This document shows, in pieces, positions 28,934 through 58,663 of a stretch of DNA of 64,000 nucleotides. The notes under the pieces are model-generated. The model was given only the letters and a program-made list of their open reading frames with translations, was not told where the DNA came from and ran no database searches. A program made the translations under genes and the position numbers. The stretch is from NCBI GenBank assembly GCA_009829735.1, contig CM020619.1, positions 4,789,727 through 4,853,726 on the forward strand. Reading direction: 5' to 3'. This stretch comes from Pyropia yezoensis (Eukaryota; Rhodophyta; Bangiophyceae; Bangiales; Bangiaceae). Positions within the stretch are counted from its first letter, which is position 1; each line of letters opens with the position of its first letter.

Positions 28934-28935
28934 TT

Positions 28936-31433: not shown

Positions 31434-31437
31434 TATT

Positions 31438-31454
31438 TGGTGGAGCAGCAGGGG
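31438..31454 (+). other. Primer-binding site of B1
   Basis: TGGTGGAGCAGCAGGGG, four bases after the LTR, identical to the family A site although the LTRs of A and B are unrelated. Confidence 0.75.
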
Positions 31455-31643
31455 AATTGGAGTGTTTGAGAAGAGACATTTGGGAGCAGCGGTTGCGTTG
31501 TTCCTATTCTGTCTTTTTCTGTGGTTTGGGAATTATTTGCACCCGTTCACGGGAACCCCATTCCTGGCTCTCCAACCCCTCTCTTGTGGTCTTGCGATCT
31601 TTGGACACGCAGGTAACTGGACTGTGGCTGTCAAGAGACCAAC

Positions 31644-34410: not shown

Positions 34411-34910
34411 NNNNNNNNNNNNNNNNNNNNNNNNNNNNNNNNNNNNNNNNNNNNNNNNNNNNNNNNNNNNNNNNNNNNNNNNNNNNNNNNNNNNNNNNNN
34501 NNNNNNNNNNNNNNNNNNNNNNNNNNNNNNNNNNNNNNNNNNNNNNNNNNNNNNNNNNNNNNNNNNNNNNNNNNNNNNNNNNNNNNNNNNNNNNNNNNNN
34601 NNNNNNNNNNNNNNNNNNNNNNNNNNNNNNNNNNNNNNNNNNNNNNNNNNNNNNNNNNNNNNNNNNNNNNNNNNNNNNNNNNNNNNNNNNNNNNNNNNNN
34701 NNNNNNNNNNNNNNNNNNNNNNNNNNNNNNNNNNNNNNNNNNNNNNNNNNNNNNNNNNNNNNNNNNNNNNNNNNNNNNNNNNNNNNNNNNNNNNNNNNNN
34801 NNNNNNNNNNNNNNNNNNNNNNNNNNNNNNNNNNNNNNNNNNNNNNNNNNNNNNNNNNNNNNNNNNNNNNNNNNNNNNNNNNNNNNNNNNNNNNNNNNNN
34901 NNNNNNNNNN
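34411..34910. other. Assembly gap, 500 N
   Basis: Exactly 500 N, so a placeholder length. The flanks match B2 positions about 41253 and 45552, which are about 4.3 kb apart. Confidence 0.98.
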
Positions 34911-35954
34911 GTACTCCTCGTCCTCGCTGCACAGGAAGTGGACGGTCAACTTGTCGACAATCCAGACCATCAGGAGGTCGGGGAGAAACCAAAGCCGGTT
35001 GGACACCAAGACCTCGTGAAGCCAGTGGTTGGCCGCCAAGACTGTCATCTCGGACGTATACATCATGTACGGGATTGAATGGAAGAAGCCCTTGATCGAC
35101 GCCTGAGTCAAGGCGTCCAAGAAGTACCAGGTGCAAGGGATGCTGGAAGGAGCAAACCCGACCGGGATCTCGACTTCCTGCTGCTGCGGGATGACCTTGG
35201 GGTAGTATGCCGCCCGGTTAGCCTTGTCCAGCTTCCAGAACTCCTGGTGGTTGCAGCTCACAAGGAAGTCACGCTGACGCCCGCGTCGCTCACCCTGCTC
35301 CCGTGCCGGCGACAACTTGGAGTATTTCCGGGTCAAGAAAGGCGGCTCCAGAGCGACCATGCTCGGACGGGGGTCGCAGTTCAAGCTTCCCGACCCCTTG
35401 AGCGCCTCGTCCCAGACCTTGAGCGCCCGGTGGACGTACCCTTCCTCCTCCGGCCACCGGAGAACGGACGCGGACACGCGACGCTCGGTCAAGGGTAGAT
35501 CCAGTACCAGCGCGAAGGGGAGATCCTCCAGACGAGCAACCCAAGAGGAACCCGAGAAGCTCTGGGAGCGGTCTTGTGCCAGGCGCATCTGGTCCGCCGT
35601 ATGAAGACGTGCCTTGTCCATCTCGGTCAAGACCCCGCGCTGGAGTTCCTTGCGCCAGAGGTCCATGCAATCCTGCTGGCACTGGGCCGCGCCGGCGTTG
35701 CCAACCACCGTGGAGTAACGCCGGGCCGCCAGAGGGTCCTGCCCAAGGAGCATCTCCGGGAGACCCTCCGGGGGGGCCTCGACCGGGTGCATCGCGGAAG
35801 CCGGGGGAACTCGATCCGTCCCCGCCGTGGCGACCGGCGCCGGCACCGACATCCGAGGAACCGGAGGCAGGAGAGGGGCACGACGACCCGAGTTCTCCTC
35901 CGCAACACTCGCCGCCGGAACCACGGGCCCAGCTTGGATCTCGGAACTGGACAT
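34911..35954 (-). CDS. Family B antisense ORF (B1), N-terminal half, runs into gap
   Basis: From ATG at 35954 (MSSSEIQAGPVVPAA) to the gap, 348 codons, nearly identical to the start of the B2 copy. The frame upstream of this ATG differs between B1 and B2 through indels, which supports this start. It contains LVSCNHQEFW...YYPK...EVEIPVGF and NRLWFLP, the conserved core. Confidence 0.82.
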
Positions 35955-36138
35955 ACCGTCCAGACTCCGGGGAACGAGAGGGCCAAGGTGAAGGAGCGGA
36001 GGGGGGGGGGCAGAATCGGGGCAGGTGATCGTGACCGGGTGAAGACGCTCGACCTCGGCACCGGTGTGGACGTGCTCGAGGCTGTGCACGGTGGCACCTG
36101 GTTCGGCCCGAGGACGTGCCGGACTAGGGAGGGAGCTA
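35955..36138. other. B1 region between antisense ORF and 3' LTR
   Basis: Noncoding spacer and probable leader of the antisense ORF, with the polypurine run AGGGAGGGA shortly before the LTR. Confidence 0.6.
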
Positions 36139-36710
36139 TGTAGCATCCCTGGCCCCGACTTGGCGCCGACCCGGGACTGCAACCAGAGGGCACCAGGTGC
36201 CAGAACACGCCCGCCGTGTGGCGATGGTTGGCGGCCGTGGCCCGTGCCCGGCACTGGGATGCGGTGGACTACGCTATCCACACGCGAGAGAGGGATTTCT
36301 GATGTGTTTTTGCATATTTGTGAGGGACTTGATTTGAGAGAATTTGAGTGTGAGATTAGTGAGTGGGAATAGAATTAGTAGTGATAGTGGCCCCCGACCT
36401 GACGAGGTTAGACTCGGGTCGGGGCCACTCGGGGTTATGGGGGGGCTACCGGGCCAACGTGCCGGGGTTCCCCCAGATGCACGTTAAGAGGGACAGCGAG
36501 GCGCCCTCGGCCCGCGCCCTCAGGGAAAAAGACAACTGCGCGTTTGCTTTCCTCTTCCCCGTGTGCACTACCGTGCGTATCTGTTTGCCCGGCAAGCAGG
36601 CACGTGAGGCAACAGGCATACCATTCTCGTAGTTCCCCTTTCTGCGTTACCTGTCCCTTTCCCCCGAGGGATATTGACACGTGTCTGAGAGGATCGAGTT
36701 TTATACCACA
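36139..36710 (+). repeat. 3' LTR of B1
   Basis: 572 bp, the same as the 5' LTR at 30862 at every base I compared. Confidence 0.95.
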
Positions 36711-37706: not shown

Positions 37707-38278
37707 TGTAGCATCCCTGGCCCCGACTTGGCGCCGACCCGGGACTGCAACCAGAGGGCACCAGGTGCCAGAACACGCCCGCCGTGTGGCGATGGTTGGC
37801 GGCCGTGGCCCGTGCCCGGCACTGGGATGCTGTGGACTACGCTATCCACACGCGAGAGAGGGATTTCTGATGTGTTTTTGCATATTTGTGAGGGACTTGA
37901 TTTGAGAGAATTTGAGTGTGAGATTAGTGAGTGGGAATAGAATTAGTAGTGATAGTGGCCCCCGACCTGACGAGGTTAGACTCGGGTCGGGGCCACTCGG
38001 GGTTATGGGGGGGCTACCTGGCCAACGTGCCGGGGTTCCCCCAGATGCACGTTAAGAGGGACAGCGAGGCGCCCTCGGCCCGCGCCCTCAGGGAAAAAGA
38101 CAACTGCGCGTTTGCTTTCCTCTTCTCCGTGTGCACTACCGTGCGTATCTGTTTGCTCTGCGAGCAGGCACGTGAGGCAACAGGCATACCATTCTCGTAG
38201 TTCCCCTTTCTGCGTTACCTGTCCCTTTCCCCCGAGGGATATTGACACGTGTCTGAGAGGATCGAGTTTTATACCACA
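37707..38278 (+). repeat. 5' LTR of B2
   Basis: 572 bp, TGTAGCATCC...ATACCACA. Confidence 0.95.
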
Positions 38279-38282
38279 TATT

Positions 38283-38299
38283 TGGTGGAGCAGCAGGGG
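38283..38299 (+). other. Primer-binding site of B2
   Basis: TGGTGGAGCAGCAGGGG, four bases inside the 5' LTR. Confidence 0.75.
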
Positions 38300-38487
38300 A
38301 TTGGAGTGTTTGAGAAGAGACATTTGGGAGCAGCGGTTGCGTTGTTCCTGTTCTGTCTTTTTCTGTGGTTTGGGAATTATTTGCACCCGTTCACGGGAAC
38401 CCCATTCCTGGCTCTCCAACCCCTCTCTTGTGGTCTTGCGATCTTTGGACACGCAGGTAACTGGACTGTGGCTGTCAAGAGACCAAC

Positions 38488-40248
38488 ATGGCTACCCTCC
38501 CTGGCACGACGGTGCCCGAAGGGGTAGACCCCGCGTCCCTTGACGCATCCCTGGTCACCGCGGGGGACGGTGCCCAACCCGGCGTTCTCCCTACGGGTGA
38601 AGCAGACCTGGGCGTGACATCCGGTAGTGGACTGGAGTCTACAGGCGGCCAAGTACCGCCTGCTCCCGTTCCTCCGGCTGTTCCTCCTGTGGGAGCCACC
38701 CCGGGGTCAACGGCGTTCGAGTCCGCTCGCAGCAGACGTCTCCCTCCTGTCGGTTCTACTCCTCAACCTCCAGGGATAGCCCCTGGTGTGTTTACTCCTG
38801 GACCCACACATGGCAGCTGGGTGTATACACCTCTTCCTGTGGGCACTAGCAGTGCCGGAGGCACCGCTATGACTGGTTCTACGGGTCTTCCTGAGACTTC
38901 GACTCCTGGGGCCGGCCAAGCTTTTCCTCCCCTTGCATCCTATGGAGCGGGGAGCTCTAAGACCGGTAACCGGAGCAGCCGTAGGCGTCGGCGTCGTCGC
39001 CGTCGCTCTAGCACCAGCGAGACCAGTTCCTCCAGCTCTGAGGAGGGATATGACTGGGATGCATCTCCCGGTCCTACCCGGCGCAGGCTAGTCGAGTTCG
39101 ACTTCCCTGCCCACCAAGTGGGAGATGCCACCCTGAACAAGGTCACGTATTGGGGTAACTACCGACTGGAGAACCAAGACCAAGGTTACACCCGGAAGAT
39201 GGCCAAGAAGATGGCATCCCTGAGCCGGCGAATGCAGCCGAGCTTTGGGGGACATCCTAAGTTTTCCGGGAGGAGACCGGCGCTTATCTTTGCCTTCCTG
39301 CGCCGGTTTGTCAAGGCATGCAATGACAACGATGTGTCCGAGGGCAAGGCTCTCTATCTCCTGGTTAACTTCATGACCGGAGAAGCGGAACAGCGGTTTG
39401 CACAGGTTCTACCAGACTCTGCCGGGCACATTGTTGGACGTACCGTCCCGAGTTATCCGGAGGCGGTCAACTGGCTCCTGTCCAACTACGCAGACGCGGA
39501 CTCCCTGCGTAAGGCAGTCGGTAGGCTGAACCGGGCAACCATGGAGAGACAAGAGACTCCAGAGGCGTTCGCCCGTCGTGTCCGGGAGATGAGCGATGCT
39601 TGTGGCAACGTTTACCCTGAGGACAGGCTCAAGATGATCTTCTCGGAGGGGCTTCCTGAATATCTTCAAGTGGATGCGGAGAACTACAACCAGGAACATC
39701 AAGAACATACCTTCCAGCAGTTGAAGGCCTACACCCAGGGCAAGCACCGGCAAGCCAAGGCCCTCCAGGCTCCTATGGTATCAACTCCCAAGCCGTTGTC
39801 GCGAGTTCGTCCCGGACCCGACAAGTATAAGGGAGGTGATAACCCTGTACCGGTACTCGCAGTTGGCGAGGCCTCACCCATGGAGTCAAGGGACAAGTGG
39901 GGCGGCTTCGTTTCTAAGGAGCAACCTTCCCTGGTCGCCCCCAAGCAGGTCAGGAACCAGCGGTTCCGGTCTTGTTGGCTGTGCCAGAAGGAGGATCACA
40001 TGTCCTACCAGTGCCCGACCATTCCCAAGGACCTCCAGGAGAAACTCAAGCGTCAAGGACTGGTGTTTGCAAAGGCGGTCAACTGGGCTGACCGGCGGGC
40101 ACCCTCCAAGATGGACAAGGCACAGGTACATGCCATCCGAGTGGCAACCTTACAGAGTATCACGGAGGCTCTGACAAAGGAAGCTCCTACGGACTTTGAC
40201 CTGGAGACCGAAACCTCTAAGGACTCCTCGGACCCGGGAAACGAGTAG
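38488..40248 (+). CDS. Family B Gag (B2)
   Basis: 586 codons from ATG at 38488, the same length as the B1 Gag, with few substitutions. It has a Pro/Thr/Gly-rich N-terminus, an Arg-rich patch followed by a Ser/Glu run, a Retrotrans_gag-like middle (FAFLRRFVKACNDNDVSEGK and RRVREMSDACGNVYPED), and one CCHC knuckle (CWLCQKEDHMSYQC). Gag should form the particle that packages element RNA. It ends DPGNE-stop (TAG 40246-40248), with GGGAAAC at 40236-40242 in frame, one codon (GAG) before the stop. Confidence 0.93.
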   Translation: MATLPGTTVPEGVDPASLDASLVTAGDGAQPGVLPTGEADLGVTSGSGLESTGGQVPPAPVPPAVPPVGATPGSTAFESARSRRLPPVGSTPQPPGIAPGVFTPGPTHGSWVYTPLPVGTSSAGGTAMTGSTGLPETSTPGAGQAFPPLASYGAGSSKTGNRSSRRRRRRRRRSSTSETSSSSSEEGYDWDASPGPTRRRLVEFDFPAHQVGDATLNKVTYWGNYRLENQDQGYTRKMAKKMASLSRRMQPSFGGHPKFSGRRPALIFAFLRRFVKACNDNDVSEGKALYLLVNFMTGEAEQRFAQVLPDSAGHIVGRTVPSYPEAVNWLLSNYADADSLRKAVGRLNRATMERQETPEAFARRVREMSDACGNVYPEDRLKMIFSEGLPEYLQVDAENYNQEHQEHTFQQLKAYTQGKHRQAKALQAPMVSTPKPLSRVRPGPDKYKGGDNPVPVLAVGEASPMESRDKWGGFVSKEQPSLVAPKQVRNQRFRSCWLCQKEDHMSYQCPTIPKDLQEKLKRQGLVFAKAVNWADRRAPSKMDKAQVHAIRVATLQSITEALTKEAPTDFDLETETSKDSSDPGNE

Positions 40249-43200
40249 GGCAGGCGCTCTCCCCAAGTGTCTTCCCGAATCTCCAATGGCAGGGTACTTC
40301 TACCCGTTCTCCCCTTGCGTGCCGGGAGAAAGGACGGCAGTTACCTGCTCAACCGGTAGCCGCCTGGACACCCTGTTTGTTCAAGGGGACCTTGCTCGTC
40401 CTGCGTAAGGAAAACCTCAAGATTAATGCTCGTATGCGTGTGGGGGATAGCCTCCCCCAAGCTGTTACGCCGGTGGTCGACACGGGAGCCGGACCAAGCG
40501 TCATCACTGAGAACCTGTTACCTCCGGGCTGGCGTCGACATGCCTGGAGAGCGCCTACCAGAACCCATATTGTAGACGCATCAGGTCAAACCCTACGACC
40601 GCTTGGCCGTCTTCCCGTCGCCAACTATGTCAACAATGAACCAATGCTTTTTCCCTTTCTAGTAGTCAAGACCTTATCAGTCCCCCTCATCCTAGGCTGG
40701 GACTTCCAGAAGCAGCATGTCAAGAGCATCCTACCCGGAGAAGGAAAGGTGCAGTTCAACCATGGGTTTGTGTCACCAGTGCTGGAGCACCTGGACACCA
40801 AGGTTCGTGTGGCCAAGAACCAGAAGGAACGCATCCCACCCTCTACCTTGACCCTCATCAAACCGGTGCTCCTACCTCCTCGCTCGGAGACCAAGGTTCA
40901 AGTCACGACCCGGACTGCAGGTCAATGCCTGATCTACGGACGCAAGGAATTTCTGGCGAAACACCGATTATACCTAGCCCACGGACATCACAAGAAGGTG
41001 GAGAGGCACACCCCGTTCTCGGTGCTGATCGTCAACGTGAGCCGGAAGCCAATAACCCTCGCCAAGGGCACTCGAGTTGGTACAGCAGAGCCTTACCGGG
41101 GGTCCGCCCGCGCTATGAGCAAGGAAGACCTCTTGAACCTGCAACAAGAGCTGGCATCCAACTTGACGGCCTTAGACGTATCTCCGGAACAAGAGCAGGC
41201 TGGCCGTACTACTCCGAAGCCCGAACAAGCACCGCCCGGGATGCCGAAGGTCAACCAAGAAAACGTCCCTCCCGACGTGAAGGAGGCACTGGAGAAGCTT
41301 CTCCAGGAATATCGGCACCTGTGGTCTGGCGAGCTGGGCAAGATGGACGCCACCCTACACCGGATTCAACTCAAGCCAGATGCCAAACCAGTGCACATAC
41401 AACCATACCGGGCTGGACCTCATCGCCGGGATGAGATTGAGAAGCAGGTTAACAAGATGCTCAAGATGGATGTTATCGAGCCGTCTGATGGCGAGTGGGC
41501 TTTCCCGGTGGTAGTCGTCCCGAAACCTGGCGGTCACTTCCGTTTCTGCGTTGACTACAGACGCCTGAACGAGATGACAGTCAAGGATGTATACCCGATA
41601 CCCCGGATGGATGATTGCCTCGACTTTCTTGGTGATGCCACCCTCTTCTCGACGCTGGATTGTAATGCCGGTTACTGGCAGATCCCTCTGGCTGACGAGG
41701 ACAAGGACAAGACTACTTTCACGTGCCACCTGGGACTATTCCGGTGCAAGCGTCTCCCTTTTGGTCTCACTAATGCTCCGGCAACCTTCCAGAGAGCCAT
41801 CGACATCATCCTGTCGGGGCTAAGGTGGAGAACATGTTTGGTCTACCTGGACGACATCATCGTTTTCTCCAAGACCCCAGCGGAACACCTGGAGCACCTT
41901 CGAGAGGTCCTGGCCCTCCTGTCCAAGGCTGGAGTCACCCTCAAGGCCGAGAAGTGCCACCTGTTTGAGACTGAGGTGGAGTACCTGGGGCACGTGTTGA
42001 GTCCGGGGGAGCTCCGAGTCAATGAGAAGAACATCAAGGCCCTCCGACATGCACGGCAACCTAAAACCCAGACGGAACTCAAGAGCTTCCTGGGTATGTG
42101 CAACGTCTACCGCCGGTTCGTACGGGACTACGCTCTGATTGCCCGGCCCTTGACCAAGCTTACTAGCAAGAAGCTTCCAGCACAACTCCCGGTGTTCGAC
42201 GAGAAGCAGACAGCAGCCTTCGAAGAGCTCAAGAAGCGCCTGACCACCACTCCAGTACTGGCGTTACCCAAGCGGGAGGGCCAGTTTGTTCTGGAGACTG
42301 ATGCCTGTGGCGTCCAGGTGGGGTGCTCACTACTCCAGCAGCAACCTGATGGGCACTTCCTCCCGATAGGCTACTACAGTCGCGTCTTGACTCCAGCCGA
42401 GAAGAACTATTCCACGACCGAGCGCGAGTGCTTGGCGGTCGTCTGGGCTTGCTTCCTGTTACGTCCATATCTTGAAGGACAAGAGTTCCTCATCCGGACG
42501 GACCACGCCAGTCTAAGGTGGCTGCTATGCATGGACAGCAGTCAAGGAAGGGTCGCCCGGTGGCGCCTACGCCTTCTGGAGTTCAAGTACAAGGTGTGCA
42601 CCAGAGCAGGGAGGGAGCACCACTGCGCCGACACCATGTCCCGGCTGGAGACTCCTGCAGCCGATACCGGTCCTATCCCGGAGGAAATACCTTGCTTTAT
42701 CCTCCCGAATGTCGGACGTGGCTGGCACGCTCCCCTGTACGAGACACCTGAAGCTCATCAACCGGTAACCATTCACCGGATGCTGGAGGCACAATTGACG
42801 GACCCTCAATGCTTGGAGCTTCGCCACCAAATGGACCTGAACCGGAACAGTCGCTTCTCCGAGTCTACAGACGGACTCCTGGTACGGGTGTCACCCTTCG
42901 ATGGGGCAACTCAAGTTTACGTACCCCGAAGTCTACGAGCTGACATCCTACGCCTGGAGCACTCGTCTCCCCAGGCCGGACATCCTGGTATCAATCGGAT
43001 GTATGCTTCCATGAGACGACACTATTACTGGGAAACCATGGCCAGTGACGTCCATAAGTGCCTGGAGGCTTGTGTTTCTTGTGCAAGGAACCGGTTGTCC
43101 CAGAGGAAGAAGACTTCTAAGCTACGCCTATTCCCTGCGGCGGAGCCCTTTGCAAGCTTAAGCATGGACATCCTGGGGCCCCTACCTGAAACATCCAGTG

Positions 43201-44336
43201 GCAACATATACCTGCTCATCATTTGTGACCGGTTCTCCAAGTTCACTCGAGCAATCCCGCTGAGGACCATCACGGCTCTGGATGTCACGTCAGCCTTCTG
43301 CGAGTACTGGATAGCTGCCTATGGCCCTCCAGACTCCGTCTTAACCGACAACGGTCCTCAGTTTGCATCCCTGTTCTTCCAAGGAGTCTGTGACCTGATG
43401 GGCATCAAGAACTTGTACACCACGACGTACCACCCTCAAACGAACGGCCAGGTGGAACGATTCAACCGGACCCTGGTGGACATGCTACGGCACTACGTGG
43501 AGGAGCACCAAGAAGACTGGGACGAGCTCCTGGCTGTCCTCACTCTAGCCTACAACTCCCGAGTTCATCGGACAACGGGAGTCGCTCCACTCGACTTTGT
43601 CACCCCGAGGCGGCTGACCAACTTCTCCCTGGAAGGAATACCGGATGGTCTCCAGCCTGCACTGAAGTCAGGTCCCAAGGCAAAGGATGAGTTCCTGGAA
43701 CAACTAAAGCTCCTGCTCCCAAGAGTCAAGGAGTCAATCTCAAAGACCCAGGAGCGATACAAGCGGGACTATGACAAGGGTGTCCGGGAAAAGAACAAGG
43801 AACTGGGTGGTGGCGACTGGGTTTTTGTGGACAACCATAGCAAGACCCGGGGGAAGCTGGACTCTAAGACGGATGGACCTTATGAGATTCTTAATACGGA
43901 TGGCTGGACCTTCCTTCTAGACGTGGATGGTTCCCCGTACCGGGTGAGCAGCGACCATGTCACCCGAGCTCCACCGCCAAGCCAACGGGACTTGACCCGG
44001 CGTAAGCGAGCCGCAGTCCCCTGGCTATCCCAAGAAGAAGGCCGGGAATTTGTCTACGTCAAGTTTGTCGACCATGCCTGGAGAGACGGGCGCCTGTATC
44101 TGCGAGTACGCTGGTTCGGTTTTAACCCGGCAGATGATACATGGGAACCCTCAAACCGGCTACCCATCGCGGACGTCTGTGCCTACACGCGACGGAACGG
44201 GATTGAGGGCACTCCAGTGGCCAGAGCCGGCAAGCTTCTGGAGTCGGACACGGAGGAGGACCAAGAGGACGGGGCCAACCAAGACCCTCGGGACGAGACG
44301 AGCTCACCCGCAACGGATGCGGAACAAGAGGATTGA
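40221..44336 (+). CDS. Family B Pol polyprotein (B2), intact
   Basis: An open frame of 1,371 codons after TAA at 40218-40220. No ATG occurs until about 40432, so it is probably made as a Gag-Pol fusion by frameshifting. Domains: aspartic protease (DTGAGPS, about 87); RT (FCVDYRRLNEMTVKD, LDCNAGYWQIP, YLDDIIVF at 542); RNase H (LETDACG, TERECLAVVWA); integrase zinc finger (HPGINRMYASMRRHYYW, CVSCARNR); integrase core with all three acidic residues (SMDILGPLP, LTDNGPQFAS near 1043, HPQTNGQVERF). A C-terminal chromodomain at about 1277-1330 (FVYVKFVDHAWRDGR...VRWFGFNPADDTWEP) is followed by an acidic tail. Chromodomains of such elements steer integration to marked chromatin. It ends 145 bp from the stop of the antisense ORF. 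Confidence 0.95.
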   Translation, partial: GLLGPGKRVGQALSPSVFPNLQWQGTSTRSPLACREKGRQLPAQPVAAWTPCLFKGTLLVLRKENLKINARMRVGDSLPQAVTPVVDTGAGPSVITENLLPPGWRRHAWRAPTRTHIVDASGQTLRPLGRLPVANYVNNEPMLFPFLVVKTLSVPLILGWDFQKQHVKSILPGEGKVQFNHGFVSPVLEHLDTKVRVAKNQKERIPPSTLTLIKPVLLPPRSETKVQVTTRTAGQCLIYGRKEFLAKHRLYLAHGHHKKVERHTPFSVLIVNVSRKPITLAKGTRVGTAEPYRGSARAMSKEDLLNLQQELASNLTALDVSPEQEQAGRTTPKPEQAPPGMPKVNQENVPPDVKEALEKLLQEYRHLWSGELGKMDATLHRIQLKPDAKPVHIQPYRAGPHRRDEIEKQVNKMLKMDVIEPSDGEWAFPVVVVPKPGGHFRFCVDYRRLNEMTVKDVYPIPRMDDCLDFLGDATLFSTLDCNAGYWQIPLADEDKDKTTFTCHLGLFRCKRLPFGLTNAPATFQRAIDIILSGLRWRTCLVYLDDIIVFSKTPAEHLEHLREVLALLSKAGVTLKAEKCHLFETEVEYLGHVLSPGELRVNEKNIKALRHARQPKTQTELKSFLGMCNVYRRFVRDYALIARPLTKLTSKKLPAQLPVFDEKQTAAFEELKKRLTTTPVLALPKREGQFVLETDACGVQVGCSLLQQQPDGHFLPIGYYSRVLTPAEKNYSTTERECLAVVWACFLLRPYLEGQEFLIRTDHASLRWLLCMDSSQGRVARWRLRLLEFKYKVCTRAGREHHCADTMSRLETPAADTGPIPEEIPCFILPNVGRGWHAPLYETPEAHQPVTIHRMLEAQLTDPQCLELRHQMDLNRNSRFSESTDGLLVRVSPFDGATQVYVPRSLRADILRLEHSSPQAGHPGINRMYASMRRHYYWETMASDVHKCLEACVSCARNRLSQRKKTSKLRLFPAAEPFASLSMDILGPLPETSSGNIYLLIICDRFSKFTRAIPLRTITALDVTSAFCEYWIAAYGPPDSVLTDNGPQFASLFFQGVCDLMGIKNLYTTTYHPQTNGQVERFNRTLVDMLRHYVEEHQEDWDELLAVLTLAYNSRVHRTTGVAPLDFVTPRRLTNFSLEGIPDGLQPALKSGPKAKDEFLEQLKLLLPRVKESISKTQERYKRDYDKGVREKNKELGGGDWVFVDNHSKTRGKLDSKTDGPYEILNTDGWTFLLDVDGSPYRVSSDHVTRAPPPSQRDLTRRKRAAVPWLSQEEGREFVYVKFVDHAWRDGRLYLRVRWFGFNPADDTWEPSNRLPIADVCAYTRRNGIEGTPVARAGKLLESDTEEDQEDGANQDPRDETSSPATDAEQED
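40236..40242 (+). promoter_or_regulatory. Family B -1 frameshift heptamer GGGAAAC
   Basis: Gag frame CCG GGA AAC GAG TAG; slipping back one base gives GGG AAA CGA GTA, the pol frame, which is open from 40221. A 7-bp inverted repeat TTCTCCC/GGGAGAA lies about 65 bases downstream, and GGGTA-cttc-TACCC lies between. These are weaker stimulator candidates than the stem of family A. Confidence 0.7.
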
Positions 44337-44481
44337 GAAGAAGGGAACGGGTATATCAAGGAGAACACGCAATGCAAGCATGGAACAATCAAGGAAAACA
44401 AGCACCCGCTCGAGCAACCCTTCTCTCCGCCTCTTCCCTCCTCGCTTCTCCCAAGACCCTCACCCTCCTTGCCTCCAACTA

Positions 44482-46599
44482 CTACTCTCGGCGCGGACGC
44501 TGAGCCGCGGGAGTGTCCTCCGGCGCTGCCTCCGCGGTACGACGGGAACCGGAGGAAGACGGGATGACGTAGTGCGGTGGACGCGGCGCATCCCGGTATG
44601 ACGCCATCGGAGTAGTACCAGTAGTTGCCGGTGGCTCCCGCTCATCCAGATATGTCCGTCGGCGCCGCTGGAAGCCCGTGAAGGTCTCTGACCACTGCTG
44701 GGCCAAGCCATGCCGCGTCAAAGTCGCCAGAAGTTCGCCAACCACCGGGTTGTTCGACATCTGACCGCTATCTGCGCAAGCAAACACCCGGTCGACCACG
44801 TTGTTCAAGACGCTGGCGTAAGTACCCAGCACCAGAGAAGACCCAACGCCTTCAACCTGCACCGGAAGACGACCCAGCTGGTCTTCAATCATACCGACGT
44901 CGTACTGGTCGCATGTCGGACCACCTTGATTCAGGTACCAGTCAGGCACCCGGAAGCGGGTAAGGCGCAGAGTCGGCGCCGGAATCTCGAACCGCCCCGA
45001 GGACGACACTACCGGACGGTTCACAACGGCCCCCGAAACCGGAGTACCCAACTCCAGCGGAGGCACAGCGCCGCCGGCGTTGGAAGAAGGCGTCCGAGGC
45101 AGAGCGGCCGGAGTAGTCGGCGACCGCACGGCCACTCCCAGACTCGCCGCAGACAGGCGCGGTGCCGGAGGAGCTTGAAGTACTGGCACAACCGGAACAG
45201 GGCGTGAACGCGCCGGCGACGGTTGAGGCGAGGCCACCGGGGCGACAAGTGCAACGGGAGGAAGCGGAGCCGCCGCAGACGCCCGACCGACCGTCGCGGC
45301 CCATCCCGACTCCTGCACCGGCGGCCCAACTGGCAGAAGATCAAGGGCGGCCGGAGCAGGAAAGCTACCTAGCTGCGGCCACGCCGGAAGCGGCGTCGCC
45401 AGCTGCACCTTGGCCGGAGAAGACTGGTAGACCACCTGCGCCCAACCGAAGCCATCCCGACGCGGGCGGTTCTGGTCGGCAATCGCGTTCAAGAAGTTCC
45501 GGTCATGCACCGGCACCAGACGCCGGAAGTCGATCATCGCCTGGAAGAGCTCCTTGTACTCCTCGTCCTGGCTGCACAGGAAGTGGACGGTCAACTTGTC
45601 GACAATCCAGACCATCAGGAGGTCGGGGAGAAACCAAAGCCGGTTGGACACCAAGACCTCGTGAAGCCAGTGGTTGGCCGCCAAGACTGTCATCTCGGAC
45701 GTGTACATCATGTACGGGATTGAGTGAAAGAAGCCCTTGATCGACGCCTGAGTCAAGGCGTCCAAGAAGTACCAGGTGCAAGGGATGCTGGAAGGAGCAA
45801 ACCCGACCGGGATCTCGACTTCCTGCTGCTGCGGGATGACCTTGGGGTAGTACGCCGCCCGGTTAGCCTTGTCCAGCTTCCAGAACTCCTGGTGGTTGCA
45901 GCTCACAAGGAAGTCACGCTGACGCCCGCGTCGCTCACCCTGCTCCCGTGCCGGCGACAACTTGGAATATTTCCGGGTCAAGAAAGGCGGCTCCAGAGCG
46001 ACCATACTCGGACGGGGATCACAGTTCAAGCTCCCCGACCCCTTGAGCGCCTCGTCCCAGACCTTGAGCGCCCGGTGGACGTACCCTTCTTCCTCCGGCC
46101 ACCGGAGAACGGACGCGGACACGCGTCGCTCGGTCAAGGGTAGATCCAGCACCAGCGCGAAGGGGAGATCCTCCAGACGAGCAACCCAAGAGTAACCCGA
46201 GAAGCTCTGGGAGCGGTCTTGTGCCAGGCGCATCTGGTCCGCCGTGTGAAGACGAACCTTGTCCATCTCGGTCAAGACCCCGCGCTGGAGTTCCTTGCGC
46301 CAGAGGTCCAAGCAGTCCTGCTGGCACTGGGCCGCGCCGGCGTTGCCGACCACCGTGGAGTAACGCCGGGCCGCCAGAGGGTCCTGCCCAAGAAGCATCT
46401 CCGGGAGAGCCTCCGGGGGGGCCTCGACCGGGTGCATCGCGGAAGCCGGGGGAACTCGATCTGTCCCCGCCGTGGCGACCGATGCCGGCACCGACACCCG
46501 AGGAACCGGAGGCAGGAGAGGGGCGCGACTACCCGAGTTCTCCTCCGCAACACTCGCCGCCGGAACCACGGGCCCAGCCTGGATCTCGGAACTGGACAT
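44482..46599 (-). CDS. Family B antisense ORF (B2), intact
   Basis: 705 codons from ATG at 46599 (MSSSEIQAG). The open frame reaches back into the 3' LTR, but B1 and B2 differ by indels before this ATG. An ordered region spans about residues 60-390, with RRYSTVVGNAGAAQCQQDC and SWVARLEDLPFALVLDLPL. The segment LVSCNHQEFW...YYPK...VEIPVGF aligns without gaps over 37 residues with LVTSAQLEFP...YYPK...VEVPYGF of family A. NRLWFLP is at 319-325. A Pro/Ala-rich linker leads to a second ordered part (LTRFRVPDWYLNQGG, YDVGMIEDQLGRLPVQVEGV, ELLATLTRHGLAQQWSETFT). The C-terminus lacks the RS tail of family A. No known domain, signal peptide or membrane segment is evident; function unknown. Confidence 0.85.
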   Translation of the reverse strand: MSSSEIQAGPVVPAASVAEENSGSRAPLLPPVPRVSVPASVATAGTDRVPPASAMHPVEAPPEALPEMLLGQDPLAARRYSTVVGNAGAAQCQQDCLDLWRKELQRGVLTEMDKVRLHTADQMRLAQDRSQSFSGYSWVARLEDLPFALVLDLPLTERRVSASVLRWPEEEGYVHRALKVWDEALKGSGSLNCDPRPSMVALEPPFLTRKYSKLSPAREQGERRGRQRDFLVSCNHQEFWKLDKANRAAYYPKVIPQQQEVEIPVGFAPSSIPCTWYFLDALTQASIKGFFHSIPYMMYTSEMTVLAANHWLHEVLVSNRLWFLPDLLMVWIVDKLTVHFLCSQDEEYKELFQAMIDFRRLVPVHDRNFLNAIADQNRPRRDGFGWAQVVYQSSPAKVQLATPLPAWPQLGSFPAPAALDLLPVGPPVQESGWAATVGRASAAAPLPPVALVAPVASPQPSPARSRPVPVVPVLQAPPAPRLSAASLGVAVRSPTTPAALPRTPSSNAGGAVPPLELGTPVSGAVVNRPVVSSSGRFEIPAPTLRLTRFRVPDWYLNQGGPTCDQYDVGMIEDQLGRLPVQVEGVGSSLVLGTYASVLNNVVDRVFACADSGQMSNNPVVGELLATLTRHGLAQQWSETFTGFQRRRRTYLDEREPPATTGTTPMASYRDAPRPPHYVIPSSSGSRRTAEAAPEDTPAAQRPRRE

Positions 46600-46771
46600 A
46601 CCGTCCAGACTCCGGGGGAACGAGAGGGCCAAGGTGAAGGAGCGAAGGGGGGGGGCAGAATCGGGGCAGGTGATCGTGACCGGGGTGAAGACGCTCGACC
46701 TCGGCACCGGTGTGGACGTGCTCGAGGCTGTGCACGGTGGCACCTGGTTCGGCCCGAGGACGTGCCGGACT

Positions 46772-46780
46772 AGGGAGGGA
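46772..46780 (+). other. Polypurine tract of B2
   Basis: AGGGAGGGA four bases before the 3' LTR, the expected place for plus-strand priming. Confidence 0.55.
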
Positions 46781-46784
46781 GCTA

Positions 46785-47355
46785 TGTAGCATCCCTGGCC
46801 CCGACTTGGCGCCGACCCGGGACTGCAACCAGAGGGCACCAGGTGCCAGAACACGCCCGCCGTGTGGCGATGGTTGGCGGCCGTGGCCCGTGCCCGGCAC
46901 TGGGATGCGGTGGACTACGCTATCCACACGCGAGAGAGGGATTTCTGATGTGTTTTTGCATATTTGTGAGGGACTTGATTTGAGAGAATTTGAGTGTGAG
47001 ATTAGTGAGTGGGAATAGAATTAGTAGTGATAGTGGCCCCCGACCTGACGAGGTTAGACTCGGGTCGGGGCCACTCGGGGTTATGGGGGGGCTACCTGGC
47101 CAACGTGCCGGGGTTCCCCCAGATGCACGTTAAGAGGGACAGCGAGGCGCCCTCGGCCCGCGCCCTCAGGAAAAAGACAACTGCGCGTTTGCTTTCCTCT
47201 TCCCCGTGTGCACTACCGTGCGTATCTGTTTGCTCTGCGAGCAGGCACGTGAGGCAACAGGCATACCATTCTCGTAGTTCCCCTTTCTGCGTTACCTGTC
47301 CCTTTCCCCCGAGGGATATTGACACGTGTCTGAGAGGATCGAGTTTTATACCACA
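46785..47355 (+). repeat. 3' LTR of B2
   Basis: 571 bp; one A/G base lost in the GGGAAAAAG run and two substitutions seen against the 5' LTR. Confidence 0.95.
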
Positions 47356-47360
47356 CGGCT

Positions 47361-50300
47361 ATATCGACCAACACGAGGGACCGGTAGTAGCGGTCACCCT
47401 CAACGCGAGCGCGAGTAGCGACCCGACGTCCGGAAAGGAGAAGCATCAAGCCAAGTCGGCCGCCTCTCTCAGGCCCCATGTGAACATGGAGGGTGTCCCA
47501 CCCAGGTTGAGGGTTCAAGTTGAACGCCTCTTGGACCAATATCACAAGTTGTGGGATGGCCAATTGGGACTCATGAGAGCCACCCAACACCGGATCGAGT
47601 TGAAGCCCGGTGCACCCCCTATACGCCAACAACCGTATAGGGGAGGACTCCGTTCAAGGGCTCTCGTTGAGGAGCAAGTTGCTCGCATGGAGGCCCTCGA
47701 TGTGATCAAGGCCAGTAACGCCGAGTGGGCGAGTCCGGTGGTTATCGTCCCCAAAGTTGATGGGACCCCCCGGTTTTGTATCGACTACCGTAAGCTCAAC
47801 GAGAGCACGGTGAAGGACAGTTATCCCCTACCTCGGATGGACGACTGTCTGGACTCCCTGGGGGAGGCGAACGTGTTCTCTACCCTGGACTGTAACGCGG
47901 GGTACTGGCTAATTCCCATTGACCCGGAGGACAGGCATAAAACTACCTTTACCTGTCACTGTGGTACCTGCCAGTGCAAGCGTCTACCGTTTGGCCTGTG
48001 TAACGCGCCGGCAACTTTCCAGCGCGCTATGGACATGATTCTGGCCGGAGTACGGTGGCAGATCTGTCTCGTGTATCTAGACGATATCATTGTGTTCTCC
48101 CGAAGTCCGGAGGAACACATTGGCCATCTTGGCCAGGTGTTCAAGCTACTTGCTGACGCCGGTGTGTCACTGAAGGCGAGTAAGTGCCACCTCTTCACTC
48201 AAGAGGTGGAATACTTGGGACATGTTGTCCGTCCGGGGCGTCTCAGTGTCAACGAGAAAAACTTGAGGGCCATCCGTAAGGCTCAGTACCCCCGGACCCA
48301 GACCCAGATGAGGAGCTTCCTCGGGATGTGTATCGTGTACCGCCGTTTCACCAAGGGCTTCGCCAAGGTGGCGAAACCGTTGAATGAGTTAGTGAGCTCA
48401 ACGCTGCCGAAGAACCTGCCTCCCCCAAGTCGGGTGGAGCAGGAGTCCTTTGAGACTCTTCGGGACCTTCTGCTGAAGCCCCCTATCCTGGCTATTCCCA
48501 GGTTGGGAGGCCACTACATCCTGGATGTGGATGCTAGCTACGACCAACTTGGTTGTGTGTTGCTTCAGCAGCAGCCGGACAAGGAGTACTTGCCGGTGGG
48601 ATACTTCAGCAAGGGGCTGAACTCGGCCGAGAAGAACTACGGAGTCACCGAGTTGGAAGGACTCGCAGTGGTGTGGGCGGTGACGTCACTTCGTCACTAC
48701 CTAGAGGGTGAGAAGTTCCTCATCCGCTGTGACCACCGCGCGTTGCAGTTCATCTTCAAGACGGACTGTACGAACACTCGTCTCAACCGGTGGAGGGTGC
48801 GACTGGCACCCTTCAACCTTGATATTGAGTACCGACCTGGCAGGCAACATGCCCTTGCCGACGGCCTCTCTCGGGTACCTACCGAGGGGCTGGACACTAA
48901 CCCAGTCGATGGGGACATCCCCATCGTGGGGGTAGTCACGCGCTCGGGTCAGGCGTTGAACCCCGAGGCGCCAGTGAACAAGAAGTACTTGCCCCTGTCC
49001 CTGGACGAGGTGGTGAAGGCCCAGGCCGAGGATCCCTTCTGCAAGTCGCAGAGGGATACACTGGATACAGTGGCGGAGACGTGGTTCTTTCTGGGAGACG
49101 ATGGCCTCCTCATGAGGAGGGGGGTAGTCCAGGGGACCGAACAACTTGTCGTCCCCGCATCCCTCAAGGACAGTATTCTTGAGAGGGAGCATAACGCTCC
49201 CACAGGTGGACACCTGGGGTCTAGTAAACTGTACCAGACCCTGAGGACGAGGTACTACTGGCCGTCCATGGTGGTGGACATCTACAGTTGGGTGGCTGCC
49301 TGCACAAGTTGTGCACAGAACCGTCTGATGGAACGGCGGCCTACTACGGCTATGCTATTGTTCCCGGCCAAGGAGCCCTTTGCCGCGTTGGCGATGGACA
49401 TCATTGGGCCGCTGCCAGTGACCGAGGAGGGAAACCAGTACCTCCTGGTTATCTGTGACCGCTTCACGAAACTTACGCGAGCGATCCCACTGGCAGAGAT
49501 CACGGCCATGTCGGTCGTATCAGCCTTCCTAGATCGCTGGGTTGCCGCGTATGGCATTCCTGATAGTACACTATCGGACAATGGACCGCAATTTGCGTCT
49601 GTACTGTTTCAGGGAGTGCTGGATATGTTGGGGTTGCGGGCAAACTATGCCACCCCCTACCACCCACAAACTAATGGGCAGGTGGAGCGCTTCAACAAAA
49701 CTATTGTAATGCAGCTGCGCCACTATGTGAGTGAGCACGTGAAAACGTGGGATTAATACATTTCTATTCTTACCACTGCCTACAATTCGCAGGTTCACCC
49801 TTCTACCGGGGAAGGACCCCTCGCTTTTGTGACCCCCCGTCGCGTGCGGTCTATTGCCGTGCGGCGGTCGCTCCCAACTAGGGAGGATGGTGGCGGTACG
49901 CCTACTCCTACTGAGAGTAAGGCGGAGTTCGCTGCTAGGCTTGAAAAACTCATCCCTAAAGTCAGGGCTGAGATGGACAAAGCGCAAAAGCGCTACAAGC
50001 GTACTTTTGACAAAAAGGTGCGCAACGCCAAGCATGTCCCCAAACAGGGTGACTGGGCATTGGTCCACTCACACACCCCAACTGGGGGTAAGTTGGTATT
50101 CCAGACGAAGGGGCCGTACCAGGTCCTCCGTACTGATGGGCGGCGCTTCACCATCGAAAGTGACGATGGGGTCCGCACAGTGAACGGACAGGACGTGGTC
50201 AAAGTTGCACCACCGCCTGCAGGCGACCCAGCTTGGGCGCTTGCGTTGGAAGCGTGGCGCCTCCCCTCACTGCCTGCGGCCAAACAGGGCCCGCAGGAGT

Positions 50301-50488
50301 ACGTGTTCGATAAGTTCATCGACCACGGCTGGGATGAGGACACTGACCGCCTCATGTTGAGGGTGCGTTGGTTTGGCTACAAAGCCAAGGATGATACGTG
50401 GGAGTATGTGGAGGACCTTCCCGCTGGGAAGGTCCGGGCCTACTGTGCCCGGAATGAGATAGACCCTAACAGCCCTCCCTCAACGTGA
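47361..50488 (+). pseudogene. Pol of main A element, part 2 (RT to chromodomain), nonsense codon
   Basis: Continues A pol after the B2 duplication: YIDQHEGPVV, RT (FCIDYRKLNES, LDCNAGYW, YLDDIIVFS), RNase H (DVDASYDQLGC), integrase zinc finger and core (AMDIIGPLP, LSDNGPQFAS, NGQVERFNKT), then TAA at 49754-49756 in place of a CAA glutamine codon. After it the frame stays open through the chromodomain (YVFDKFIDHGWDEDTD...WFGYKAKDDTWEYVE) to the stop at 50488. A long open frame apparently starting at 47009 in the B2 LTR is accidental read-through from LTR sequence. Confidence 0.92.
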
Positions 50489-50599: not shown

Positions 50600-52543
50600 C
50601 TAGGCACGCATGCTAGACTCTCCCACTCCACGGCCCTCGCCCTCACGTGGAGGCGAGCGGCGAGACCCCCGGCGAAAACGCTCCCCACCAGTCGAGGGGG
50701 CCGGCGGCTCCAAGTCGGACCCGTCGCGCCCCTCACGGTCGCGCAAGTGGCGACGACCGCTGCTGCTCTTCTGCTTAGTCTTGCGCGCAAGTTGGCGACG
50801 CAGACGCCGGACCGACCCCGACTCTGACGGAGTCGAGGACTCCGAGACGGAGTAAGACAACCTGTCTTCCGACACGGAGGGAGAGCGCCGCGAGTGTCGG
50901 CGACGACGGCGAGGAGGCGAGTATGCCCGGCTCGCACGACGTTTGCCGCGCCCAAGTGGGGCTGGCTGGGGCATAATAGCCCCAATGCGAGCCAACTCGG
51001 CCGTCATAAACTCCGCCACCGACTCGCAACTCGCGGTCGCCACTGCAGTACGAACGCGCTCCTCAAGTTGAGGAGTCTCGGAAGTTTGAAGGGTTGCGGT
51101 CGACGCGGCCAACCAGGAAATGGTGCGCACCAACGTGGTGATCATCATCTCTGAGGGTAGAGGCGTGGGCGGTAACACCAACTTGGGGTATACCGTCAGG
51201 AGGGTGGCCCCCAAGTTGGGGGACACCGGGGTGGACGACTCAACGGCCACGCTAATCGGGATGTACCCGTGCGCCTGGTAGGGGACAGGAGGAAGCGGAG
51301 GGGCACGCCGAGGTGGCGGGACCCGGGTGTAACTGCGACCCCGACTTGGGGCCCCCGCAGTGGGTTGAGTCATGTGGTCATCATGTGAGGGCACGGCCAT
51401 AACTATGGCCTTGTCCGGGGGTGGCGCAGTGTGGCGATCCACCCACGGGGCATACGGGTAGTCCCCGGTGCCCAACCCCTCTCGTAGGACCACACGGCCG
51501 TCGTGAAGTTCACGAGCGACCCATACGAACTGGCGAAGTGCGCCATCGTCCTTGGGCCCACGAGTGGGGCGGCGCAACTTGTGGTCAATGCTCTCCCACT
51601 CGATAAACTTGTGGAGGCGGAGCATCTCCTCAAGTAGAGTGAGTTGTCCTGACGAGCACCCCTCAGCAACTAGCTGAGGGGTGAGCTGTTCCAAACCCTG
51701 GATGAGCCGGAGGGGGAGATGCCAGAGCATTCCCCGCCGCTGAACACAAGACACCCAGGTCGACATGACCTCGAGGAGCCACTGGGTGGCCAACATGGCC
51801 CACACCAGATGATCAGGGCCAGCCGTCAACATGACGGAGCCGAAGTGGTCAAGCAACCGTGGCAGCAACGCCGGGAACCCGTAGGGGACCTCAACTTGAG
51901 GCCACCACTCGGGCTTCTTCGGGTAGTATTGCTCCTTACTGGCAGCAGACTGCTGAGGAAACTCAAGTTGAGCCGAGGTCACCAAGTAGGGACCTCGCCG
52001 GAAATCCTTCTCCATCCGCACATCAAAGTGATGAGTGTGCGGATCGGCCTCGTGAAGGTACGGGGGGCGAGTTGCCACCGCGTCCCAAGTGAAGGTCGGC
52101 AAGTCGCCGGGGCCCGGGATAGTTCCCCCGCGGTCCACCATGGCCTTGGCTCGCTGCACGTCCTCGACCTCCTCGTCGTCCAGGAAGGCAAACTGGTCCG
52201 TCCTGAAGCCGGCAGGGAACCCGACCCTACGGGAATACTTCTCCCGTAGGCGGTCCCATACCCGACCCATCGCTGCGCCAAGTCGGCCACAGCGAAGAAC
52301 AGTCAACCCCTCCTCATACAGAGGCCAAGCGGGGTAAAACCACCGCCCCAAGGCCTCACGCGGGACAACTTGTCCCGCCTCCGGGGGAGACCCCGCCGTC
52401 AACCCAAAGCCGGGTGACGCGGGAGTCCCATCCCCCGGAGCGATCGCGGAGCCCCCGCCGGAAGTCCCGGCGGGCGCTGCACCGTAGGGGGTGTCCTCCA
52501 TACGTTCGTCGAGAGAGTCCGTCTCCACCCCCGTGGTCGCCAT
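50600..52543 (-). CDS. Family A antisense ORF (main copy), intact
   Basis: 647 codons from ATG at 52543 in GCCATGG context, two bases after a 21-bp perfect palindrome (arms CTCTCCCCAA/TTGGGGAGAG). Order: acidic start DSLDERMEDTPYG, Gly/Pro linker, GRWFYPAWPLYEEG, FAFLDDEEVEDVQRAKAM, DPHTHHFDVRMEKDF, then the core shared with family B (LVTSAQLEFP, YYPK, VEVPYGF, then RRGMLWHLPLRL near 269-280). A middle region follows (PNLGATLLTVYPKLVLPPTP), then the RS-like basic tail from about residue 535. It stays open although gag and pol of the same element are broken, which may simply reflect young age. It is probably transcribed from the 3' LTR side. Confidence 0.85.
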   Translation of the reverse strand: MATTGVETDSLDERMEDTPYGAAPAGTSGGGSAIAPGDGTPASPGFGLTAGSPPEAGQVVPREALGRWFYPAWPLYEEGLTVLRCGRLGAAMGRVWDRLREKYSRRVGFPAGFRTDQFAFLDDEEVEDVQRAKAMVDRGGTIPGPGDLPTFTWDAVATRPPYLHEADPHTHHFDVRMEKDFRRGPYLVTSAQLEFPQQSAASKEQYYPKKPEWWPQVEVPYGFPALLPRLLDHFGSVMLTAGPDHLVWAMLATQWLLEVMSTWVSCVQRRGMLWHLPLRLIQGLEQLTPQLVAEGCSSGQLTLLEEMLRLHKFIEWESIDHKLRRPTRGPKDDGALRQFVWVARELHDGRVVLREGLGTGDYPYAPWVDRHTAPPPDKAIVMAVPSHDDHMTQPTAGAPSRGRSYTRVPPPRRAPPLPPVPYQAHGYIPISVAVESSTPVSPNLGATLLTVYPKLVLPPTPLPSEMMITTLVRTISWLAASTATLQTSETPQLEERVRTAVATASCESVAEFMTAELARIGAIMPQPAPLGRGKRRASRAYSPPRRRRRHSRRSPSVSEDRLSYSVSESSTPSESGSVRRLRRQLARKTKQKSSSGRRHLRDREGRDGSDLEPPAPSTGGERFRRGSRRSPPREGEGRGVGESSMRA

Positions 52544-52880: not shown

Positions 52881-53349
52881 TGTGGCAGTATTGACCCCCA
52901 GGTACGGGGGCAACACGTGCCATGCAAGGGGCGGCAGGCCACTAGCCTGATCCGTTCCTCCCCCTGCATTTGGGTCCGTATTCCCTAAGTTTGGGATAGT
53001 TAGCTTAGTAGTAAATCCAACTTGGATTTGAGGGTTTTCTGCATTTATCGTCTTGAATTTTCGTGTGGCCCGGTGGGCAGGTGCTGGGGTGGGAGATTCT
53101 GAGTGGCGAGATTCTGAGGGGACCCTGGGGGGATAAGGGGAGGGACAGCGGGGCTTGGTCCTGCGTCCCCGTCCCGACCAAGAAACTGTTGGACCACACA
53201 CCATCCTCTTGTTTGCCAGTGGGGGGTTTGCCCCACAACAGGGACAGAGTGTGTGCGACTTGCACTTCTTCCGGTTCCCCCGACACGGGAGGCAGCCCTT
53301 GTACACCGCCCCAACTTGAGTGCCGTGTGTGTAAGTGGTTTTTGCCACA
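52881..53349 (+). repeat. 3' LTR of main A element
   Basis: 469 bp, TGTGGCA...TGCCACA, about 1 percent different from the 5' LTR. Confidence 0.95.
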
Positions 53350-54104: not shown

Positions 54105-54715
54105 GGGAGTCCGCCAAGCTGAGAGTGTAGTTGTCATCAAAAGGTTTTTTTTTCCCCGTTCAGCAGGGTTTTCTTTTTTCCTTCGACACGATTGTCTCTT
54201 GCTCTTTCCTGTACCAACACTGGAGGCAACTGTGTGGCCGTCCGCAGCGGGGGAAGACGGCGGGGCACTCGGTGGGGGGAGGAGGTGGAGCGTAGCAACT
54301 GGCTCCGCGCAGGGCGGGTGTGTCCAGCAGCGGAGAGGGGGGGGGGGGGTCGGGAAGCTGGCGGCGTGCACGGAGAGGACTGCGAGGGGTGTCAGGTCGT
54401 AAAGGGGTGCCAGTCGGGGATGGGTGGCGCGCGCGTCCGGCGGTGCGAGTAAGTGGGTGGGGACGGGGGGGAATTGGTACAGACCTGCGCCGGTGGCCGC
54501 GTTCACGAGCGACAGGCACAGCGGCGCTGCCGGCCACAGCCGCCCGGGGTTGAGGGGGGGGTTCGGACAGATGGGGGGGTTCGAGGACGGCTGACCCCTG
54601 TGCCGCTCGCCGGCCGCCACCATCCGCAGCGGCGGCGGCGGAGATGATGGCGGCGGCGACAGCCTCAACGGCGGCGGCTGGGGTTGGTGGCTGGGGAGCT
54701 GAGAGGAAAGGTGAG
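54105..54715. other. Region downstream of PIF gene, no supported gene
   Basis: T-rich stretch at 54138-54182, then increasingly G-rich DNA with diverged traces of the tandem repeat that follows. No terminal inverted repeat of the PIF transposon was recognised. Confidence 0.4.
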
Positions 54716-56296
54716 TGGAAGGGGGGCAAGGGGGCCCGTCTCTATGGTGCTCGCCGCCCGTCGACATCGGGGGCGGTGGCGGTAGCGGCGCCGGCGACGG
54801 CGCCAGCCGTCGCGGCTGGCTCCAGAGGAGGAGGGAGGACTGGAAGGGGGTGAAGGGGGGAGCGGGCGCACCCCTGCGGTGCATGTCGCCTGCCGCCATC
54901 GGCGGCGGGCGGCGTCTGCGGCGGCGTTGGCCGCAGGGCCGGCCGCTCTGGCTGGCCGGGGTGGAAGGGGGGGGACAGGTGGGCGGTGGGTGGTGGGTAA
55001 AGGTGTGAGCCGCTGGCTCGCTCGCCTCAGGATGGCGGCGGTTGCGTCGGTTGCGGCGGCAGCCGCCGGGCCTCGCTGGCGTGGAGAGGGGGAGACTGGT
55101 GCGAGGTGGAGAGGGCTGTGGGGCAACGGTGTGGCGCTTGTCGCCCGACGCCATCGGGGCGATGCCGGTTGCGGCAGGCGGCCACAGCGCTGGCGACCGC
55201 GGATGTCTGCAGAGGGGGGGGGAAATGCTGAAAGGTGGGTGAGGAAGCGCATAATCTACAATGCTGCCTGCCTCCCGCCGCCATTGGGCGCGGACGGGGC
55301 GGAGACAGCCGCCTGTGCCGGTAGGGGTGGAAGGTGGGACACTCGTGGGAGGAGGGGTGGGAAGGGGGCCAGTACCTGTGGTGCTGGCCGCCTGCTGCCA
55401 TCGGAAGCGGTGGCGGCAGCGGCGCCGGCGACGGCGCCAGCCGTCGCGGCTGGCTGCAGAGGAGGAGGGAGGACTGGAAGGGGGTGGGGGGGGGAGCGGG
55501 CGCACCCCTGTGGTGCTTGCAGCCTGCCGCCATCGGCGGCGGGCGGCGTCTGCGGCGGCGTTGGCCGCAGGGCCGGCCGCTCTGGCTGGCCGGGGTGGAA
55601 GGGGGGGGACAGGTGGGCGGTGGGTGGTGGGTAAAGGTGTGAGCCGCTGGCTCGCTCGCCTCAGGATGGCGGCGGTTGCGTCGGTTGCGGCGGCAGCCGC
55701 CGGGCCTCGCTGGCGTGGAGAGGGGGAGACTGGTGCGAGGTGGAGAGGGCTGTGGGGCAACGGTGTGGCGCTTGTCGCCCGACGCCATCGGGGCGATGCC
55801 GGTTGCGGCAGGCGGCCACAGCGCTGGCGACCGCGGATGTCTGCAGAGGGGGGGGGAAATGCTGAAAGGTGGGTGAGGAAGCGCATAATCTACAATGCTG
55901 CCTGCCTCCCGCCGCCATTGGGCGCGGACGGGGCGGAGACAGCCGCCTGTGCCGGTAGGGGTGGAAGGTGGGACACTCGTGGGAGGAGGGGTGGGAAGGG
56001 GGCCAGTACCTGTGGTGCTGGCCGCCTGCTGCCATCGGGGGCGGTGGCGGCAGCGGCGCCGGCGACGGCGCCAGCCGTCGCGGCTGGCTGCAGAGGAGGA
56101 GGGAGGACTGGAAGGGGGTGGGGGGGGGAGCGAGCGCACCCCTGTGGTGCTTGCAGCCTGCCGCCATCGGCGGCGGGCGGCGTCTGCGGCGGCGTTGGCC
56201 GCAGGGCCGGCCGCTCTGGCTGGCCGGGGTGGAAGGGGGGGGACGGGTGGGCGGTGGGTGGTGGGTAAAGGTGTGAGCCGCTGGCTCGCTCGCCTG
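54716..56296. repeat. 634-bp tandem repeat (about 2.5 copies) with internal ~127-bp subunits
   Basis: Sequence recurs at an offset of exactly 634 bp (55027 and 55661; 55261 and 55895; 54892, 55526 and 56160). The last two copies are nearly identical and the first is more diverged. Within a unit, a GCC-GCCATCGG-like anchor recurs near 55531, 55786, 55916 and 56033, spaced 117 to 130 bp or twice that, so the unit looks like five degenerate monomers. 634 is not a multiple of three, so long frames across it are not proteins. Confidence 0.8.
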
Positions 56297-58552: not shown

Positions 58553-58663
58553 TTGGCAGCTGCCTTTGTTGTGAGAGTGTGAGGGTTAGGGCTGTAGTTA
58601 AAAGCCACTCTGCGTACCACTTCGACTTGAAGCACTCTCTTGGCACTGTTACTCGGCCTTCCC

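Follow-up and report, generated by a model that had tools for sequence, protein, structure and literature searches.

Additional open reading frames (ORFs) on the antisense strand are an established arrangement in LTR retrotransposons of plants and a fungus. The available sections of one account describe such frames, termed aORF-3R, between pol and the 3' LTR of the plant elements Grande, RIRE2, and PvRetro13 and of the fungal element Boty; according to these sections they are kept in several copies, their function is unknown, and the antisense protein of Grande is nuclear, with a promoter of its own (PMC7264820). In Retand, the accessible part of a second account gives 97% of clusters as encoding a TRP28 domain (PF04195) in antisense (PMC11963269), and as far as the excerpts of both sources go, the function of antisense accessory genes is an open question in maize and rice too (PMC7264820, PMC11963269). 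For REM1 of Chlamydomonas, one source reports a reverse-frame truncated integrase with a GPY/F module and a chromodomain (PMC2774666). The arrangement that we describe here, in Ty3/gypsy elements of a red alga, is of this known kind.

The window, a 64,000-nucleotide stretch of the Pyropia yezoensis genome, is G+C-rich and contains nested LTR retrotransposons, among them members of three families that we call A, B, and C. Two B elements, B1 (30862-36710, + strand) and B2 (37707-47355, + strand), both lie inside a single A element (28466-53349). The LTRs of this interrupted A element (28466-28933 and 52881-53349, + strand) differ by four substitutions and one indel; the B1 LTRs (30862-31433 and 36139-36710) are identical over 572 bp, and those of B2 (37707-38278 and 46785-47355) are two substitutions and one indel apart. 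All three elements have 5-bp target duplications (GTACG for B1, CGGCT for B2, and ACGAG for A, which flanks the 5' LTR and is repeated after 53349), and the LTRs of A and B end in TG...CA. The high similarity within the three LTR pairs points to recent movement of elements carrying the antisense ORF. B1 contains a run of 500 Ns (34411-34910) at a place where B2 is longer by about 4.3 kb (41255-45555), so that much of B1 pol is hidden or missing.

The B2 element encodes a gag ORF of 586 residues (38488-40248, + strand), which has no Pfam match and in which we read the CCHC pattern CWLCQKEDHMSYQC by eye, followed by a pol ORF (40377-44336, + strand). Pfam finds the Ty3/gypsy domain order of reverse transcriptase (RT), RNase H, and integrase in this ORF and in an A pol ORF beside the antisense copy A3 (60452-63991, − strand) that is stop-free and leaves the window at 64000. 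A chromodomain match of 20.1-22 bits, against a Pfam cut-off of 25.1, is seen in three of four ORFs with a pol C-terminus, including B pol; it is absent from the listing for the ORF at 60452-63991. Of 1,152 aligned residues, A and B Pol share 559 (48.5%), and A (28934-28955) and B (31434-31455) have TTTGGTGGAGCAGCAGGGG in common directly behind the 5' LTR, at the primer-binding site, where they likely use the same tRNA primer. A and B are related Ty3/gypsy families, probably chromodomain-bearing. An earlier reading made from the sequence alone had treated A, B, and C as families with unrelated LTRs; this stands for the LTRs, which are alike at their ends only (the longest blastn match between them is at most 15 bases), with the correction that A and B are related as elements. 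Family C is represented by a 3' LTR of 363 bp (2859-3221, + strand, TGTAGCA...TGCTACA) preceded by a purine-rich tract (2847-2858).

Several other features of the window concern the A family and its surroundings. The A element at its right-hand end contains a 500-N run (59718-60217) flanked by two copies of a 1,288-bp repeat with 100% identity (58430-59717 and 60218-61505), probably an unmerged assembly overlap. Where the sequence of this element starts (~56297), a block of tandem units of ~634 bp, 92-97% alike, ends (54711-56278), and the element has no 3' LTR at this junction. Between 10350 and 15313, A-type LTRs (10350-10817, − strand; 13226-13696 and 14844-15313, + strand) surround A fragments of an older subfamily that is 88-89% identical to the other copies. 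A further tandem repeat, 2.2 copies of a 228-bp unit, lies at 25084-25599.

In A and B, a long ORF lies between pol and the 3' LTR on the strand opposite gag-pol, and its stop faces the pol stop across 111 bp in A and 145 bp in B. Across the families, LTR and ORF are 185-575 bp apart. The full B copy, in B2, has 705 codons without a stop (44482-46599, − strand), and 348 codons of the B1 copy can be read before the N run (34911-35954, − strand). Three full A copies of 647 codons, A1 (10948-12891, − strand, within the older A fragments), A2 (50600-52543, − strand), and A3 (56609-58552, + strand), are each exactly 1,944 bp long. The ORF of C (2-2284, − strand) has at least 761 codons before it leaves the window and adjoins the C 3' LTR; its start may be the Met at 2269, because the Met of a relative, P0009, aligns there. 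These positions, lengths, and gaps are as the sequence-only reading had given them. Its claim that all three ORFs run opposite to gag-pol is directly visible in A and B; for C, whose gag-pol is outside the window, we place the element on the + strand, and its ORF in antisense, because of the purine-rich tract and the 3' LTR beside the ORF. Position and orientation are thus constant in A and B, and the visible part of C is consistent with this. Two further pieces had not been noticed before: the C-terminal half of a fourth A copy, A4 (323 codons at 3222-4190, or 3222-4193 with the stop, + strand), which the insertion of C seems to have truncated, and a decayed fragment resembling A that tblastn matched in two frames with 51-60% identity (13696-14038, + strand).

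The antisense ORF shows the substitution pattern of a coding sequence. Among the full A copies, changes fall mainly at third codon positions (68/40/110, 63/41/121, and 14/12/41 at first, second, and third positions), and dN/dS is 0.344 for A1-A2, 0.291 for A1-A3, and 0.237 for A2-A3; for B1-B2 it is 0.114 over 348 codons. When the same substitutions were placed at random 1000 times, the medians for these four pairs were 0.80-0.85, and none of the 1000 placements was as low as the observed value in any of them. For comparison, dN/dS is 0.115-0.158 for A pol, 0.327 for B gag, and 0.63 for a part of B pol (292 codons), a value based on ten changes. The disrupted copy A4 shows constraint when compared with A3 (dN/dS 0.365, dS 0.142, 1/1000 random placements as low) and none when compared with A2 (0.904, dS 0.052, 534/1000); A1-A4, for which no placements were simulated, gives 0.383. 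A mosaic origin of A4 or a loss of constraint in this copy may lie behind the discrepancy. In all, dN/dS is below random expectation in five of the six simulated pairs, which share sequences and so are not independent, with A2-A4 as the exception.

The integrity of the frame tells the same story. The three full A copies have no indels in the ORF, and 1- and 3-bp indels occur in the 312-336 bp upstream. None of the seven copies or part copies read contains a stop, a count that left out the decayed fragment (13696-14038). Of the three A pol copies, two have one in-frame stop each, the one beside A4 (4305-7844, − strand) and the part copy beside A2 (47357-50488, + strand), and the adjacent antisense ORF stays open. 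These results show that the antisense ORF is a real protein-coding gene under purifying selection in A and B. Selection has kept it working, so the elements seem to need it. The proposal of an ancient third gene under selection is therefore well supported for A and B, with the A2-A4 comparison against it, and extends to C by homology. It withstands two refuting outcomes that the sequence-only reading had named: dN/dS near 1 with random stops, and no profile-level similarity between the families.

That homology resides in a core region of the proteins. In single comparisons, BLASTP gives E values of 8e-9 for A-B, 4e-9 for A-C, and 0.015 for B-C, and shuffled cores are as similar as the real ones in 0/500, 0/500, and 5/500 cases, respectively. 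The gap-free A-B block of 37 residues and the LxxLP motif picked out earlier are both present in the pairwise alignments. At the profile level, hhalign with shallow profiles yields probabilities of 74.9% for A-B and 88.2% for A-C, bearing out the expected similarity for these pairs, and 5.2% for B-C, where it is weak. These sequence comparisons show homology of the cores that is clear for A-B and A-C and weak for B-C, and so it is A that links B and C. A C-terminal module common to all three, suspected by eye, stood out in one of five pairings and is not claimed (B against the relative P0010, 13/1000 shuffles as high).

Wider searches recovered few relatives. Searching proteins with C yielded six, two of them at 94% identity and the other four hypothetical proteins at 51-61% identity from Pyropia vietnamensis, a member of the red-algal order Bangiales; one of these represents a cluster of 19 sequences. 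With A and with B we found one near-identical protein each. About 8,000 candidates were scored in each of these searches, in which distant relatives could be missed. The C and A alignments found no relative in viral contigs, nor did the C alignment alone in prokaryote genome contigs. No match with E ≤1 was found in Pfam for any of the six A, B, and C translations or among PDB chains, and a Pfam query around copy A4 returned only an unrelated match below the cut-off. Among the literature titles and abstracts listed, which say little about absence from print, none concerned an antisense ORF in red-algal Ty3/gypsy elements. From these comparisons the proteins appear to form a new family, and the red algae a new host group for antisense extra ORFs. 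The annotated hypothetical proteins of Pyropia vietnamensis may be mobile-element genes.

The proteins themselves offer limited clues to function. In A, B, and C alike, the N-terminal region is of simple composition and basic clusters follow the core, and the tail of the A protein is rich in arginine and serine. AlphaFold2 models had a mean pLDDT of 32.3 for A, with 10 aligned sequences, and 38.7 for the C core, a low quality that reflects too few relatives; they were too poor to search with, and predicted helices are not used as evidence. We also considered a Gag origin, since full-length comparisons with B gag gave z scores of 4.6, 4.6, and 5.8 for A, B, and C, and rejected it because these scores stem from low-complexity stretches.

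On balance, we favor the explanation that the ORF is the third gene of a red-algal, probably chromodomain-bearing Ty3/gypsy lineage, expressed from an antisense mRNA of its own and encoding a nuclear accessory protein. The mRNA would start within the 3' LTR or in the interval of 185-575 bp that separates it from the ORF, which would allow the protein to be made independently of the sense promoter. The protein would then enter the nucleus and, as an accessory factor, act on nucleic acid or chromatin of the element itself, where its tasks might be to control expression, to export RNA, or to help the pre-integration complex enter. The nuclear role is suggested by the basic clusters together with the analogy to Grande GENE23 and the antisense proteins of Retand, for which such a role has been proposed; basic clusters occur widely in arginine-rich proteins when the genome is G+C-rich, which weakens the argument. 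The sequence-only reading had proposed an RNA- or DNA-binding regulator, and the basic clusters would fit this as well; with no known domain found, we infer such a role only tentatively.

Could the gene instead encode a protein of the cytoplasm or the particle, a second structural or envelope-like component that is antisense by happenstance? We consider this unlikely, although it has some points in its favor. The A and B antisense proteins are 26.4% identical over 288 residues, close to Gag (31.2% over 173 and 29.8% over 218 residues), which indicates that the antisense protein evolves about as fast as Gag. In addition, the 19-residue hydropathy maxima of B and C reach 1.54 and 1.61. The maximum of A, however, is 1.23, that of C falls in a proline- and alanine-rich stretch, and on this scale no convincing membrane segment is seen in A, B, or C. 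Nor are the cores Gag-like, with z scores against the B Gag core of 0.9, -0.4, and -0.2. Envelope-like genes of plant elements, moreover, are in sense orientation in the available sections of the account cited above (PMC7264820).

We regard as equally improbable the capture of a host gene that was inserted in antisense and retained for its host-derived activity. The lack of similarity to known element proteins in Pfam and PDB is in its favor, and the Pyropia relatives carry no annotation beyond hypothetical protein. On the other hand, no host relative turned up among the proteins searched, a cluster of 19 sequences in Pyropia fits a repeat, and homologues at one place in A and B mean that any capture predates the A/B split.

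A third possibility, which we rate lower still, is that the antisense RNA matters and not the protein, forming double-stranded RNA with the sense transcript that tunes or limits the element. The convergent layout, with 111-145 bp to pol, lends itself to this, and regulation by antisense RNA is known for Ty1 (in the accessible part of PMC12786077) and discussed for plant elements (likewise in part of PMC7264820). Antisense RNA to pol, as proposed in the sequence-only reading, would require a transcript that extends into pol across the 111 or 145 bp beyond the ORF stop. Constraint tracks the codons of this one frame, for which RNA pairing alone is insufficient, although RNA and protein roles may both hold. 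Finally, a chance open frame, which a G+C-rich window with 65 ORFs of at least 200 residues, many overlapping, might bring to mind, is hardly credible: it is refuted for A and B by codon-frame constraint, the lack of indels and stops, homology across families, and first-order Markov shuffles, none of which reached a frame as long (0/300 for each of the A, B, and C regions), and for C the case against it is the homology to A and the Pyropia relatives.

Returning to the third-gene explanation, we also put forward a bolder version of it, more speculatively. The opposite-strand gene may be lineage-wide, with an origin independent of the plant antisense ORFs and an age at least that of the A/B split (Pol ~48% identical). 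Its product would work in the nucleus in the manner of an antisense regulator of retroviruses: expressed from the side of the 3' LTR, whatever the state of sense transcription, it would restore or tune expression of the element. If this were true, antisense accessory genes would be a recurrent solution in LTR elements. The presence of an apparently different and probably red-algal family at the same position points either to repeated origins of the arrangement or to great age. The core conserved across A, B, and C is the part that should matter, and it provides a comparative handle.

How do the red-algal genes compare with those of known systems? The antisense gene HBZ of HTLV-1 lies near the 3' LTR and encodes a nuclear regulator, according to parts of two accounts, a parallel that we draw as an analogy of function and not of sequence (PMC11963269, PMC7264820). 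REM1, a chromovirus as far as the available text describes it, resembles the A and B elements in being an algal Ty3/gypsy element that codes in reverse frame; in A and B, however, integrase and the chromodomain match belong to sense pol, and the antisense ORFs have no Chromo match at E ≤1. The REM1 paper reportedly describes a third ORF in inverse orientation. Retand belongs to a non-chromovirus lineage of flowering plants, unlike the probably chromodomain-bearing A and B elements, and the A, B, and C proteins have no TRP28 match in the Pfam scan; the accessible description of Retand nonetheless gives the same position and orientation, with pol and the 3' LTR likewise far apart. The aORF-3R elements differ in their hosts, with a red alga and probably chromodomain-bearing elements here, and their proteins are compared with ours by arrangement. 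In that arrangement the antisense ORF of A and B likewise lies between pol and the 3' LTR and is kept in several copies.
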